Part shown: piece after piece, positions 12,558 through 27,298 of the stretch
Numbering within the stretch: the stretch's first letter is position 1
How the letters are laid out: each line of letters begins with the position of its first letter
Source of the DNA: Bacteroidales bacterium
GTDB taxonomy: Bacteria; Bacteroidota; Bacteroidia; Bacteroidales; VadinHA17
NCBI GenBank assembly: GCA_024762655.1
Contig: JANTHB010000027.1
Coordinates: 1 to 41,715 of the forward strand
Reading direction: 5' to 3'
DNA: 41,715 nt
Made by a program: the position numbers and the translations under genes
The notes under the pieces: model-generated
Databases searched by the model: none
Told to the model about the DNA's origin: nothing
Seen by the model: only the letters and a program-made list of their open reading frames with translations

Positions 12558-15500
12558 TCACCGCTTCTCAATCATCCTGCTTTTTTTCCAGGCCAGCAGG
12601 ATGATCGTGGCCAATACTCCCAAAAACACATAAACGCCCACAGGGATCGGTTCGGCTTCTCCCGAAGCATAGGAATGAAGGCCGGAGAGATAGTAATTGA
12701 CTCCAAAATAGGTCATGATGACCGAGAAAAAGGCAAGTACTGAAGCCAGGTTGAAAGCGAACTCTCCCCGCAGGCCGGGGATCAGCCGCATATGCAGGAC
12801 AAACGCATAAACCAGACCTGTGACCAGGGCCCAGGTCTCTTTGGGATCCCATCCCCAGTAGCGGCCCCACGACTCATTGGCCCAGACCCCTCCCAGGAAG
12901 GTGCCGATAAAAATGAAATAAGCTCCCAGGATCAGGGTCATCTCATTGATGCGTGTCAGCGTGGTGACGGTTTGATCTATGTGTTCTTTGTTCTTGTCGT
13001 TTCTGACGATCATCAGCACCAGATTAAAAAGACCCAACACCATGCCCATGCCAACAAAACCATAGCTGGCTGTTATGACAGACACATGGATAGAGAGCCA
13101 GTAGGACTTCAGTACCGGCACCAGGTTGGTGATCTCCGGACTCATCCAGCTCAGATGGGCCACGAAAAGGGTAAGTGCAGCCAGGATCCCCCCTGCTGCC
13201 AGGGCAAAGGGTGATTTACGGACGAATAGCATACCGGCCAATATGGTAGCCCATGCGATATAGATCATAGATTCATACCCGTTGCTCCAGGGCGCATGAC
13301 CCGAAATATACCACCGCAGGATAAGTCCCAGGGTGTGGAAAGCAAACCCTGTTCCGATAAGGATCACGGAAACCCGGATAACGGGTTTTATTTTTAAGGC
13401 CGGGATCAGAATGTGAAAAAATAACAGGACAAGAAGGATAAACCCTAACAATCCGTATGCGATTGAAACTTTTTCAAAGATACCCGCTTTATTATAAAAA
13501 ATCTCCGTTTTAATCTTTCCGGAAGAAGGAATCAGTTCGGAAGCTCGGGTGCGCTGATAATTTTTAATGCCATCAATGACCCGCAGAACCTTCTCGTCTG
13601 CATTTCCTTCGTGTAAACCGGTGAACAAAAGCTGTATGGTATTGGTAACGAAAACGGAATCTTCTCCGGAAACATGCTCCGGGGCTTCGGCAGGAGAGTA
13701 CCAACGGTTATCGGGATCGCCGGGGGCGGGAAACAAACGCAACATTTTTCCCGTGTAAACAAGGTAACAGATATTCAGTCTTTCGTCTGTTTTGATGATA
13801 TCCTGATCCACTTTGCTTCGTCTGCCCGGGTCTTTCCGGTAGGCTCGTTGCACTGCTTCCGAAAGAATATATGTGTTATTATGTGCTGTATCGAAAAAGT
13901 CCATGAAAGAGGCGAAAGAGCCGTGCATTCCGATCATCTTTTTTACCTGGTCGTTGGACACGCGAATCATCGGAATTTTCTGCCACTCGCGGGGATAAAA
14001 AACCATACTCAGTACCACACGCTCCGGGGACATCCCGTTAAGGGTGGATTTGTAAGCTACTTTGCGTACGATTTCCGAAGCCAGGGTCTGGAAAGGCTTG
14101 ATGCGTCCTCCCTGATCCTGTACCAGCACGTCACGGAATGCAACAGCCATAGATTCGGGGAGGGCCCTGACCGGTGAATTTCCGCTTTCTGCCTGGGCCT
14201 GAGATCCGGAAAGGCCATTCAACAGGAGGATAAGCCCTATGACAGAAGCAATCTTTTTAGGCACACCAGATAAGTCAATGGAACGCCCGAGCGTCATAAA
14301 GCGACTGTTTTTGTTGAAAATGGAAAACAACATGCCGAGGGTCATCAGAAAATAACCGATATAGGTGAGCGTAGTCCCCAGGGCATCGTGATTGACAGAC
14401 AGAATCGTGCCTTTTTCATCCCGGTCATAGGACGACTGGAAAAAACGGTACCCCCGGTAATTCAACACATGGTTCATATATATACGGAAAGGCATATTTA
14501 CTTTTTTCCCGGGATCAATCAGAACCACTTCACTGGCATAGGAAGAGGGACTGTTGGATCCCGGGTAACGTTGTAGCTGAAAATCATTCAGGTGAAGACG
14601 GAACGGGAGGACGATAACGCGCGCTCCGTAATGAATACGGAACAAGGTGTTATCAACGGTGATCTCCGCAGGAACGCCGGCCTGGCCTTGCCGTCCTTTG
14701 ACAAAAAACGTTTGCCCGGCAGGGTCACCGTCAATTTTCATCTCCAGAACATCGGCAGTGGCGGAATTCATCGTATGCCCGGAGGTATAGGAGACCTTCC
14801 CTTTCGGTTGAAAGGCGGCAGGGACAATCTGCAGAGACCCCAACCGGTATATATTCCGTAGTGTAACATCTGTTGTTGTTCCGGCAGCGATCGTATCCTG
14901 ACGGTTTGCCCTCATATCAGTGTGAATTATCCCAAGTCTGGAAAGTAGTTTTAGTCTTCCATTCGTATAAGAAAAGGAAAGATCAGGGGCCGGATTGTGG
15001 TTCCCAAATCCTATCAGGACTCCTGATAACCGGAGGGTATCACCTTCCTTCAGGTAATGATCTTCCCGGTTGTGCATGTTGAGGATTACCAGTTTCAATA
15101 CCGGTTTGCCTGCCGGATCGGGGAGCAGGACAGCTTGCGCTGAAGGCAGAAATTTTACGAGCCGGAGCGTGTAATTTTTGTCGCCCAGGGAAATGTGTTT
15201 TTTGAATCTGTTTTTCCTGCCCGGAGTTAACAATACTTTCTTTTGAAATGAAACGTTGGTCTTTCCGTTTTCTGCCGTCCCGTATATCCAGGTGTCGGCA
15301 GTGAGCAGGGTGGAGGAGTCTTCCCCTTCACGGATATGCATGGTCCCTTCATAGCTGATGTACCGGGTAACGGCAGCCCCCAGAAAAATAAAGATAAAAG
15401 CAATATGGAAAAGAAAGATGGTCCATTTTTTCTTCCGGTAAACTTTGTATATAAACATGTTGGCCGTAAGGTTAACCACGATCAGCAGGATAACCCCTTT

Positions 15501-15650
15501 GAACCACCAGGCATCATACACTGTCGCCCGGGCAGCCACCGGACCATAACGGCTCTCTATGAATGTAGCCATACCGGCAGATACGGCCATAAACAGCAGT
15601 AAAAACCCCATGAAAGGGGTGGAAAACAGGAAATTGACAATTTTTTTCAT
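12558..15650 (-). CDS. ccsBA: Fused ResB-CcsA cytochrome c biogenesis protein (system II)
   Basis: 1030-residue inner-membrane protein that exports haem and ligates it to apocytochrome c. The N-terminal ResB half has an initial transmembrane helix (FLLLFMAVSAGMATFIESRYG), two more near residues 50-105, then a large periplasmic domain, with the ResB-type YRGYRFFQSSYDRDE near 410. A second periplasmic region (about 485-710) precedes the CcsA half, whose multiple helices include the WWD domain ESWGRYWGWDPKETWAL near residue 925-942. His residues at helix ends are candidate haem ligands. Such fusions are common in Bacteroidota and epsilonproteobacteria (NrfI-type). It implies c-type cytochromes and respiration. 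Monocistronic; a probable promoter lies about 50 bp upstream. Confidence 0.93.
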   Translation of the reverse strand: MKKIVNFLFSTPFMGFLLLFMAVSAGMATFIESRYGPVAARATVYDAWWFKGVILLIVVNLTANMFIYKVYRKKKWTIFLFHIAFIFIFLGAAVTRYISYEGTMHIREGEDSSTLLTADTWIYGTAENGKTNVSFQKKVLLTPGRKNRFKKHISLGDKNYTLRLVKFLPSAQAVLLPDPAGKPVLKLVILNMHNREDHYLKEGDTLRLSGVLIGFGNHNPAPDLSFSYTNGRLKLLSRLGIIHTDMRANRQDTIAAGTTTDVTLRNIYRLGSLQIVPAAFQPKGKVSYTSGHTMNSATADVLEMKIDGDPAGQTFFVKGRQGQAGVPAEITVDNTLFRIHYGARVIVLPFRLHLNDFQLQRYPGSNSPSSYASEVVLIDPGKKVNMPFRIYMNHVLNYRGYRFFQSSYDRDEKGTILSVNHDALGTTLTYIGYFLMTLGMLFSIFNKNSRFMTLGRSIDLSGVPKKIASVIGLILLLNGLSGSQAQAESGNSPVRALPESMAVAFRDVLVQDQGGRIKPFQTLASEIVRKVAYKSTLNGMSPERVVLSMVFYPREWQKIPMIRVSNDQVKKMIGMHGSFASFMDFFDTAHNNTYILSEAVQRAYRKDPGRRSKVDQDIIKTDERLNICYLVYTGKMLRLFPAPGDPDNRWYSPAEAPEHVSGEDSVFVTNTIQLLFTGLHEGNADEKVLRVIDGIKNYQRTRASELIPSSGKIKTEIFYNKAGIFEKVSIAYGLLGFILLVLLFFHILIPALKIKPVIRVSVILIGTGFAFHTLGLILRWYISGHAPWSNGYESMIYIAWATILAGMLFVRKSPFALAAGGILAALTLFVAHLSWMSPEITNLVPVLKSYWLSIHVSVITASYGFVGMGMVLGLFNLVLMIVRNDKNKEHIDQTVTTLTRINEMTLILGAYFIFIGTFLGGVWANESWGRYWGWDPKETWALVTGLVYAFVLHMRLIPGLRGEFAFNLASVLAFFSVIMTYFGVNYYLSGLHSYASGEAEPIPVGVYVFLGVLATIILLAWKKSRMIEKR

Positions 15651-15917: not shown

Positions 15918-15945
15918 TTTCCTACGTAGGCGCCTACGTAGGAAA
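15918..15945. repeat. Perfect 28-bp nested palindrome at the end of the MBL-fold gene
   Basis: Two copies of the palindrome CCTACGTAGG separated by CG and flanked by TTT and AAA, so the whole 28 bp is its own reverse complement with no mismatch. The gene's last codons (TTT CCT ACG TAG on the minus strand) lie inside it. No T-tract follows on the minus strand, so it does not look like an ordinary intrinsic terminator. A double operator, a REP-like element or an inserted micro-element are possible. Confidence 0.9.
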
Positions 15946-16779
15946 ATTCTCCAGTGTGAAAAACTTGTCTACCCGGTATCCCTTGTCAGTCATCTTAATA
16001 GTGCAGCATTCGTGGTACAGGTCGTGTTCAAAAAAGAGGATATACTTGTTTTCATAAGCTTCTTTTAAAAAGGCGGCTTTTTCCTGCAGGGTAACCAGGG
16101 GTTCTATATCATAGCTCATGTTCCATACCAGCGGCAGATGGGCCGCAGAGGGGATCAGATCGGCCATGAACACCAGGGTCCGCCCGTGGTAATGTATAAA
16201 AGGGATCAGTTGACCGCGGGTGTGACCGTTGTAGATCCTCAGTTCTACCCCGGGGACCAGCTCCGAATCGTTTTCAAGAAGTCTCAGTTGTCCGCTATCC
16301 TGTATGGGGTGGATATTCTCTTTCAGAAAAGCATCTTTCTCACGCGGATTGGGGTGCGTAGCCCATTCCCAATGCGAACGGCTGATCCAAAACGTTGCAT
16401 TGGGGAAAACAGGTTCAAAGCCGGAATGGTCCCGCCTGTAACGGATCCCACCGCCACAATGGTCGGCATGCAGGTGGGTCAATACCATATCGGTGATATC
16501 CTCCGGGGCATACCCGGCCTTTTTAAGGCCTCCTTCCAATCCGTCACCCCCGTTGAGGTACACATATTTGAAAAATTTTTCATCCTGCTTGTCCCCGTAC
16601 CCATTATCGATGAGTATACGCCGGTCGCCCGTGTCGATGAGTAGAGAGCGCAGGGCCCAATTACAAAGGTTATTACCGTCGGCAGGATATACCTTCTGCC
16701 ACAATGTCTTGGGAACAACACCAAACATGGCTCCCCCGTCAATCCTGAAGTTTGATATATGTACACGAAACAGCTTCAT
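15934..16779 (-). CDS. MBL-fold metallo-hydrolase (lactonase/AHL-lactonase-like group)
   Basis: 281 residues. The metal-binding motif T-H102-L-H104-A-D106-H107 (VLTHLHADHCGG) is intact; further ligands are expected at H185 in NGHTRGQ, the Asp in VFMADLIP and the His in FFEHDLYHE. The N-terminus MKLFRVHISNFRIDGGAMFG, with a DNG strand (ILIDNGYGDK), resembles the broad lactonase-like branch of the superfamily. No signal peptide, so cytoplasmic. The substrate cannot be predicted; lactones, thioesters or phosphoesters are all plausible. It diverges from tRNA-Glu. The stop codon is embedded in a 28-bp palindrome. Confidence 0.86.
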   Translation of the reverse strand: MKLFRVHISNFRIDGGAMFGVVPKTLWQKVYPADGNNLCNWALRSLLIDTGDRRILIDNGYGDKQDEKFFKYVYLNGGDGLEGGLKKAGYAPEDITDMVLTHLHADHCGGGIRYRRDHSGFEPVFPNATFWISRSHWEWATHPNPREKDAFLKENIHPIQDSGQLRLLENDSELVPGVELRIYNGHTRGQLIPFIHYHGRTLVFMADLIPSAAHLPLVWNMSYDIEPLVTLQEKAAFLKEAYENKYILFFEHDLYHECCTIKMTDKGYRVDKFFTLENFPT

Positions 16780-16872: not shown

Positions 16873-16947
16873 GGTCCGTTCGTCTAGGGGTTAGGACGCC
16901 AGGTTTTCATCCTGGTAACAGGGGTTCGATTCCCCTACGGACTACCA
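16873..16947 (+). tRNA. tRNA-Glu (anticodon TTC)
   Basis: The cloverleaf folds fully: acceptor GGTCCGT pairs with ACGGACT (first pair G-T), the D arm lies around CGTCTAGGGGTTAGGACG, the anticodon stem CCAGG/CCTGG encloses loop TTTTCAT with anticodon TTC at 16906-16908, and the T arm AGGGG-TTCGATT-CCCCT is perfect. The discriminator base is A (16944) and the CCA end is encoded (16945-16947). The anticodon reads GAA and GAG. rpsT starts 30 bp downstream with no room for a clear promoter, so the two probably share a transcript. Confidence 0.97.
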
Positions 16948-27262: not shown

Positions 27263-27298
27263 AAAAAAAAGAGAGAAATTAATTTCTCTCTTTTTTTT
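27263..27298 (-). terminator. Terminator of the TonB-dependent receptor gene, a perfect 36-bp palindrome
   Basis: Two 18-nt arms (eight As, GAGAGAAATT, and the complement AATTTCTCTC, eight Ts) meet with no spacer. It lies 19 bp after the stop codon. The core stem GAGAGAAA/TTTCTCTC followed by Ts is a typical U-rich terminator and would work in either direction. Confidence 0.9.

Follow-up and report, generated by a model that had tools for sequence, protein, structure and literature searches.

Tandem palindromic boxes across a Bacteroidales genome: candidate DNA sites for a putative dimeric protein

Described palindrome systems and the element in the window

Cooperative regulators typically bind palindromic boxes that are arranged in tandem, about one helical turn from each other. 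The met boxes bound by MetJ are several 8-bp palindromic boxes in tandem, in variable number and with an 8-bp period. Other chromosomes are marked by a few dozen sequence-specific palindromes that serve division or domain control, as is the case for SlmA, Noc and MatP (PMC3116907, PMC4726725). According to the available text of these sources, SlmA has about 24-52 sites per chromosome and Noc about 70, the sites of the three proteins are mostly unlinked to the control of neighbouring genes (PMC3116907, PMC4726725), and those of SlmA lie mainly in coding regions (PMC3116907). The GTAG REPs, as far as the available text of Di Nocera et al. 2013 (PMC3733652) describes them, are intergenic, lie near the 3' ends of genes and supply TAG stops to their neighbours, with some copies inside repair and tRNA-modification genes. 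In the definition available, a REP carries an unpaired GTAG at one end and is associated with a RAYT.

The DNA analysed here (the window) is a stretch of 41,715 nucleotides, which is contig 27 in the draft genome of an uncultured Bacteroidales bacterium (G000; 3.44 Mb, 165 contigs). Seven genomes of the genus, G000-G006, were compared. The window contains TTTCCTACGTAGGCGCCTACGTAGGAAA, an inverted repeat with 14-bp arms (15918-15931 and 15932-15945) and no mismatch, as stated in the original prediction of a perfect nested 28-bp palindrome over a stop codon. Two CCTACGTAGG units are found in it (15921-15930 and 15933-15942) with CG between them, and no further match to this unit was found in the window with up to one mismatch. 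Two other features read from the letters were confirmed as well: the gene ending in the palindrome is an MBL-fold gene (PF00753, E 5.7e-16), with the C-terminus ...LENFPT* and its TAG at 15936-15934 on the minus strand, and there is no T-tract directly after the element. GTAG terminates both strands of the box array and is paired within the palindrome. The coordinates are collected in Table 1.

Table 1. Position and basis of the element, its parts and the neighbouring genes in the window, and of a separate dispersed repeat in the same genome (positions by locus).
Feature	Position	Strand	Basis
Element, perfect 28-bp palindrome TTTCCTACGTAGGCGCCTACGTAGGAAA, two boxes with TTT/AAA flanks	15918..15945	none	Sequence and genome-wide copies
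Box 1, CTACGTAG	15922..15929	none	Sequence, genome-wide core
Linker, 4 nt, GCGC here, variable among copies	15930..15933	none	Copy comparison
Box 2, CTACGTAG, contains the minus-strand TAG stop of the MBL gene	15934..15941	none	Sequence, orthologues
MBL-fold (metallo-beta-lactamase superfamily) gene, last codons and stop inside the element	15934..16779	-	PF00753
Cytochrome c assembly protein / ResB-like fusion, next gene downstream, start 268 bp past the element	12558..15650	-	Pfam
Dispersed repeat of about 300 bp, copies	L186:1714-2028, L012:1550-1853, L179:844-1142		
Dispersed repeat of about 300 bp, further copies	L190:834-1136, L169:3420-3725, L009:7-87 (partial, at locus edge)		

A plus-strand tRNA gene lies just past the MBL gene (window 16873-16944; Rfam RF00005, coordinates converted from locus L011). 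Elsewhere in the window, a perfect 36-bp palindrome (27263-27298), with an A-rich left and a T-rich right side, is located between two minus-strand genes and resembles a bidirectional terminator.

We read the element, with a probability of about one in two, as one of a genome-wide set of selected DNA sites for a putative dimeric protein that would act at the scale of the chromosome. A homodimer of this candidate sequence-specific protein would recognise each box, with adjacent dimers about one helical turn apart. The arrays keep a strict 12-bp period, with two boxes in G000 and the species closest to it, three in sister species and mostly four in another genus. New sites could arise when a ready-made copy inserts, which is the case in mnmA and probably in the MBL gene, and would then be kept. 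The organisation or segregation of the chromosome, or the control of division, would be a more likely role than the control of single genes. The original prediction had also spoken of a double operator; a double site made of tandem candidate protein-binding boxes is the sense of this term that is preferred here. No sign of the resolution or attachment site that it also named came up in the analyses made here.

Copy number, array structure and flank pairing

The box is CTACGTAG, an 8-bp palindrome. The core used for the searches, CTACGTAGNNNNCTACGTAG, was defined as CTACGTAG-NNNN-CTACGTAG (20 bp, 12-bp period) because the outer C/G positions and the linker vary once mismatches are allowed. The reversed sequence served as their control. 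In G000 the core was found 53 times exactly, compared with 0 for the control and a chance expectation from genome length alone of about 0.001 (own arithmetic); the exact CCTACGTAGGNNCCTACGTAGG was found 22 times (control 0) and CCTACGTAGG 67 times (control 3). These counts are far above the control, and a chance origin was discarded on them; the original prediction had tied a chance or recent local event to, among other things, a lack of other copies, which was not what was observed. An operator of the MBL gene alone was not supported either, and a local operator of the MBL or the cytochrome gene was rejected as the main role, since there are about 50 similar sites genome-wide, in G000 mostly away from gene starts.

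With up to three mismatches, the 22-mer gave 54 matches in G000, 47 in G002, 28 in G006, 23 in G005, 15 in G003, 6 in G001 and 5 in G004, and the control gave one in G003 and none in the six other genus genomes. The core is present in all seven genus genomes and in 15 of 98 genomes of the family, spanning 7 of 15 genera, with 0 control matches in all 98. Thirteen of these 15 genomes have at least five core matches and two have one. There are 39 core matches in G005, 59 in G011 and 69 in G022, where overlapping matches are counted, so that a three-box array counts twice and a four-box array three times. In a sample of 393 genomes drawn evenly from the order, the core appeared in three, all among the five from the window's family, and in none of the 388 from outside it.

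A scan of named genomes gave at least 101 stretches, some of them in unrelated genomes, and several resemble chance or ordinary hairpins. Among the matches listed are those of a Paceibacterota MAG (7 in 0.8 Mb), the MAG ERR599159_bin.42 (6 in 0.6 Mb) and a Lloydbacteria MAG (3 in 0.7 Mb), each with 0 in the control. The locus examined in ERR599159_bin.42 is an exact three-box array, two Lloydbacteria loci carry two exact boxes and a third with one or two mismatches at the same period, and the Paceibacterota loci examined have two boxes and shared flanks (3/3). With the box and the 12-bp period recurring in some candidate-phylum genomes, the putative binder may be common to very distant bacteria. 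Text searches for CTACGTAG and CCTACGTAGG, alone or with Bacteroidetes, gave no description of the element among the matches listed, judged by their titles, and going by those literature searches only, the element family is undescribed.

A phage origin was considered and rejected: the IMG/VR scan gave five stretches with unrelated flanks, one of them within a plain 12-bp tandem repeat. Such a repeat, containing the box, occurs on the IMG/VR viral contig L298 (8543-8574), where CTACGTAGTGGG is repeated with decay.

The array analysis covered 51 of the 53 G000 copies, 20 of the G002 loci (about 46 in all) and, for the other genomes, a part of their loci. These loci were found by the 12-bp pattern, which makes the period conditional on the search; the unconditioned search with the 10-mer CCTACGTAGG yielded almost only pairs with a 12-bp period. 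With two mismatches allowed in added boxes, two boxes per array were counted in G000 (50/51), G002 (19/20), G006 (10/10) and G003 (8/8), and three in G001 (7/8), G004 (10/12) and G005 (8/8), together 25/28. G010 arrays have two or three boxes, and those of SpSt-1193 and HyVt-105 have two to five, four-box arrays making up 12 of 24. From three boxes upwards, the arrays are 32-56 bp long. The number of boxes is a property of the species, although some arrays share places between species: eight G000 elements have an orthologous array in the three-box species (e.g. L174/L117/L043 and L004/L148/L163).

In 48 of 51 G000 arrays, the outermost bases, just outside the boxes, are C or T at the left end together with G or A at the right end (C-G 29, T-G 9, C-A 6, T-A 4). 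The choice on one side is nearly independent of that on the other, which is more in keeping with a protein site than with a base pair. In G006 a mutated box was present in 5 of 28 matches, and a partner change restoring Watson-Crick pairing in none of these five.

The flanks of the two-box arrays show more contiguous pairing than expected. In G000 the mean arm is 2.18, compared with 1.00 in shuffled sequences (0 of 2000 shuffles as high), and arms of at least 5 bp occur in 8 of 50 elements, compared with 0.8 in shuffles. The mean arm is 2.05 vs 0.89 in G002, 1.90 vs 0.76 in G006 (p 0.002) and 6.25 vs 4.23 in G003 (p 0.001). No excess pairing was found in the three-box G001, G004 and G005. When pairing was tested in windows, G000 and G006 gave a significant result and G002 and G003 did not. 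Some of the four-box arrays of SpSt-1193 and HyVt-105 look like hairpins too, their linkers being complementary (L107, L123, L097). Against the protein-site reading, the excess in the two-box species indicates that a hairpin matters at some sites; the hairpin extension is real at some sites and absent from many.

Alternatively, the element could act as an RNA hairpin at the 3' ends of mRNAs, by terminating or stabilising the transcripts. The transcribed element folds well (predicted minimum -24.7 kcal/mol for the minus strand, z -3.9) and is positioned near stop codons, and in G003 the flanks read AAAAT...ATTTT, with a run of at least four T downstream in 5 of 6 oriented ends, compared with 2 of 6 in the control stretch. 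However, there is no T excess downstream in G000 (such a run in 10 of 41 oriented ends, compared with 7 of 41), and an intrinsic terminator was rejected, the T-tract being seen in the small G003 set and not in G000. Moreover, pgk has a separate terminator-like hairpin, after which one copy is found (L002), divergent genes flank 19 of the 119 copies from the seven genus genomes, and the three-box arrays lack the excess flank pairing. A known RNA family was also discarded: 20 loci scanned with Rfam showed no family at the element, the sole match being a tRNA away from it. Altogether, an RNA hairpin is an improbable explanation of the element.

Conserved places, gene context and spacing

An element was considered orthologous when a flank BLAST match of more than 100 bits was found within 450 bp, the projected position fell within 250 bp and both partners had exact cores. 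This gave 66 orthologous pairs among the analysed loci. An element stands at the orthologous G000 place in 16 of 20 cases in G002, 8 of 10 in G006, 6 of 8 in the more distant G001 and 5 of 8 in G003. The share is low in G004 (1/12) and G005 (2/8), and no such element was found in G010 (0/5), SpSt-1193 (0/12), HyVt-105 (0/12) and CSMAG genomes (0/8), with 0 of 32 for the other genera combined; a miss may reflect true absence as well as lost synteny, a short locus or a degenerate partner.

Alignments of the regions around the G000/G001 pairs are at roughly 67-79%. For G000 paired with G002 and with G006, the ungapped flank identity is 0.60 at 1-5 bp, 0.58 at 6-15 bp and 0.52 at 16-30 bp, and the linker identity is 0.64, while the box positions are all identical by the condition of the search. 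At 0.6 per site, an unconstrained 16-bp box pair would be intact in about 3 of 10,000 cases (own arithmetic). Boxes that are kept while linkers and flanks vary more freely, a period that does not change, and a number of boxes that holds species-wide yet differs at shared places would be expected of selected protein-binding sites.

The genes around the elements were called with a codon-usage heuristic. The 51 copies of G000 comprise 14 between convergent genes, 22 between co-directional genes, 5 between divergent genes, 4 inside genes and 6 at locus edges. The median distance to facing stops is 65 bp, with 15 of 50 within 20 bp, and that to facing starts is 147 bp, with 0 of 32 within 20 bp; over the seven genus genomes, 24 of 103 facing stops and 2 of 89 facing starts lie within 20 bp. 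In G002 and G006, 8 of 30 copies are between divergent genes, so the elements of these two genomes are not clearly away from promoter regions. A Pfam scan of 60 neighbouring proteins (56 from G000 and 4 from G002 and G004) revealed no functional theme among them; they are mostly unrelated metabolic and housekeeping proteins, with three regulators (TetR, BlaI-type and an ECF sigma factor).

Part of this context could be related to a scattered regulon, in which a cooperative repressor or activator would bind the tandem boxes as operators and control nearby promoters. The spacing of about one helical turn is that of cooperative regulators, the divergent copies of G002 and G006 are in a suitable position, and a TetR-family gene of G000 has an element 112 bp upstream, with one at 113 bp in the aligned G002 locus. 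Nevertheless, the G000 sites avoid starts, there are copies inside coding regions and between convergent genes, and the neighbours are mostly unrelated, which leaves this explanation very improbable. The element resembles the met boxes of MetJ in having tandem 8-bp palindromic boxes in variable number, and differs from them in its 12-bp instead of 8-bp period, its position away from starts in G000 and neighbours that share no pathway.

The spacing of the elements was compared with random placement; for this, the lengths of some G000 contigs were interpolated, and the full gap list was retained in the runs that left out contig-end elements. In G000, 50 elements occupy 46 contigs, compared with 37.7 expected (p 0.0004; 0.0016 without contig-end elements), and one gap is shorter than 20 kb, compared with 8.9 expected (p 0.0002; 0.0012 without them). 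In G002, the occupancy of 37 contigs does not differ significantly from the 33.8 expected (p 0.13), and two gaps are below 20 kb, compared with 7.4 expected (p 0.009; 0.04 without contig-end elements). The two tests are not independent because G002 and G000 largely share their sites. The spacing is more even than random, and coming from draft assemblies this is suggestive only. Six elements lie within 300 bp of contig ends in each of G000 and G002 (G000 expectation 0.9 within 250 bp), perhaps as palindromes disturb the assembly. The extreme end of contig 80 in G002 has two mirror-image matches 66 bp apart, which resembles a fold-back artefact.

Sites that are mostly intergenic and nearer to stops, share no theme and are more evenly spaced than random in G000 make a chromosome-scale role more likely. 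As for SlmA, Noc and MatP, tens of palindrome copies untied to promoters were found, less clearly in G002 and G006 with their divergent copies. As far as the available text of the sources describes those sites, the element is like them in being a few dozen short palindromes whose number fits, and unlike them in its tandem boxes and in a cognate protein that is only putative (PMC3116907, PMC4726725); it also lies mostly between genes, whereas SlmA sites are mainly in coding regions (PMC3116907). By analogy, the boxes could be the sites of a putative nucleoid-occlusion or chromosome-domain protein of Bacteroidales, a narrower proposal that we consider unlikely. We know of no nucleoid-occlusion or chromosome-domain site system, nor of such a factor, in this phylum, and if the proposal were true it would be the first one there, to our knowledge. 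For the broader reading as sites of a putative dimeric protein, the set, often conserved in place and with a box number that varies among species at shared places, provides a direct handle for fishing out the candidate binding protein.

Insertion into genes and comparison with REPs

The mnmA genes of G000, G002 and G006 carry an element in frame, read as NYVGAYVD or NYVGTYVD. In a comparison of 21 of the 22 full-length genes (G007 was left out), these are 8 residues (net 24 nt) extra with respect to the other 18. Considered as a MITE, it is a net 24-nt insertion in 3 of 21 aligned genes, with empty sites too diverged to show a target-site duplication. Synonymous changes in the element codons are 0 of 7 or 8, compared with 30-32% elsewhere in the comparisons with G000, a weak test (p 0.05-0.09 against G000 and 0.33 for G002/G006).

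In the same three species, the element provides the last codons of the MBL gene, CCT ACG TAG, and the protein ends in ...PT*; the second box of G006 is degenerate. The other 15 of 18 orthologues compared are without the element and stop at their own codons. This pattern, together with the clean mnmA insertion, favours the idea in the original prediction of a small insertion that donated the stop codon. Some sites arose in this way, that of mnmA and probably that of the MBL gene. In addition, the UvrC of G000 and AUK127 has an element near its C-terminus, and the HyVt-56 and S015_12 loci have one at the orthologous uvrC place. In G004 (L250) and G001 (L251), a short GTTCATA-like tandem repeat ends the MBL gene where G000 has the element.

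The main rival to the protein-site reading is a new REP-like family, whose palindromes would spread as single-stranded hairpins via a transposase (RAYT or other) and be tolerated behind genes, with little cellular function. The context agrees with that of the GTAG REPs in the available text of PMC3733652: dispersed intergenic palindromes near 3' ends, a TAG stop for the MBL gene, copies in uvrC and mnmA, and a GTAG end, here on both array strands. The palindrome is short (a 20-bp core, compared with 20-40 bp for REPs) and has many copies, 53 in G000, most of them intergenic, and these are located downstream of coding regions, within 20 bp of 15 of 50 facing stops and 0 of 32 facing starts. The ready-made 24-nt insertion in mnmA, the flank pairing in the two-box species and the shared flanks of the three Paceibacterota copies examined could have the same origin.

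However, GTAG is paired within the palindrome at both ends and is not a one-ended unpaired tag. Unlike the GTAG REPs as described in the available text of PMC3733652, the element grows from two to five boxes in strict 12-bp steps, has no Y1 transposase association and keeps its boxes at orthologous places. Neutral copies would not be expected to keep their boxes while the flanks diverge, or to have box numbers that change from one species to another at shared places. The Y1 transposase family PF01797 is present in 18 of 26 family genomes, 9 of 13 element-rich ones and 9 of 13 with one element or none. It was not found in the element-bearing G003, G005, G011 and G412, of which the G003 and G412 assemblies are 88-89% complete; a RAYT could have been lost. 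A RAYT-driven REP was rejected, as the presence of Y1 transposases among the 26 family genomes does not follow that of the elements.

Regarding the REP-like dispersed element of the original prediction, the dispersal and the gene context stand, and the one-ended unpaired GTAG and the RAYT association do not. We consider a REP-like family possible, if somewhat doubtful. It would be one with modular 12-bp growth and no Y1 link, which bears on how such palindromes spread.

The best Y1 transposase match of G000 is on contig 48 (2404-2763, L227), about 0.3 kb upstream of the element-bearing mnmA. G000 also has a separate dispersed repeat of about 300 bp (Table 1), with copies 84-88% identical and no open frame through it, and two of its copies lie within 30 bp of a palindrome element.
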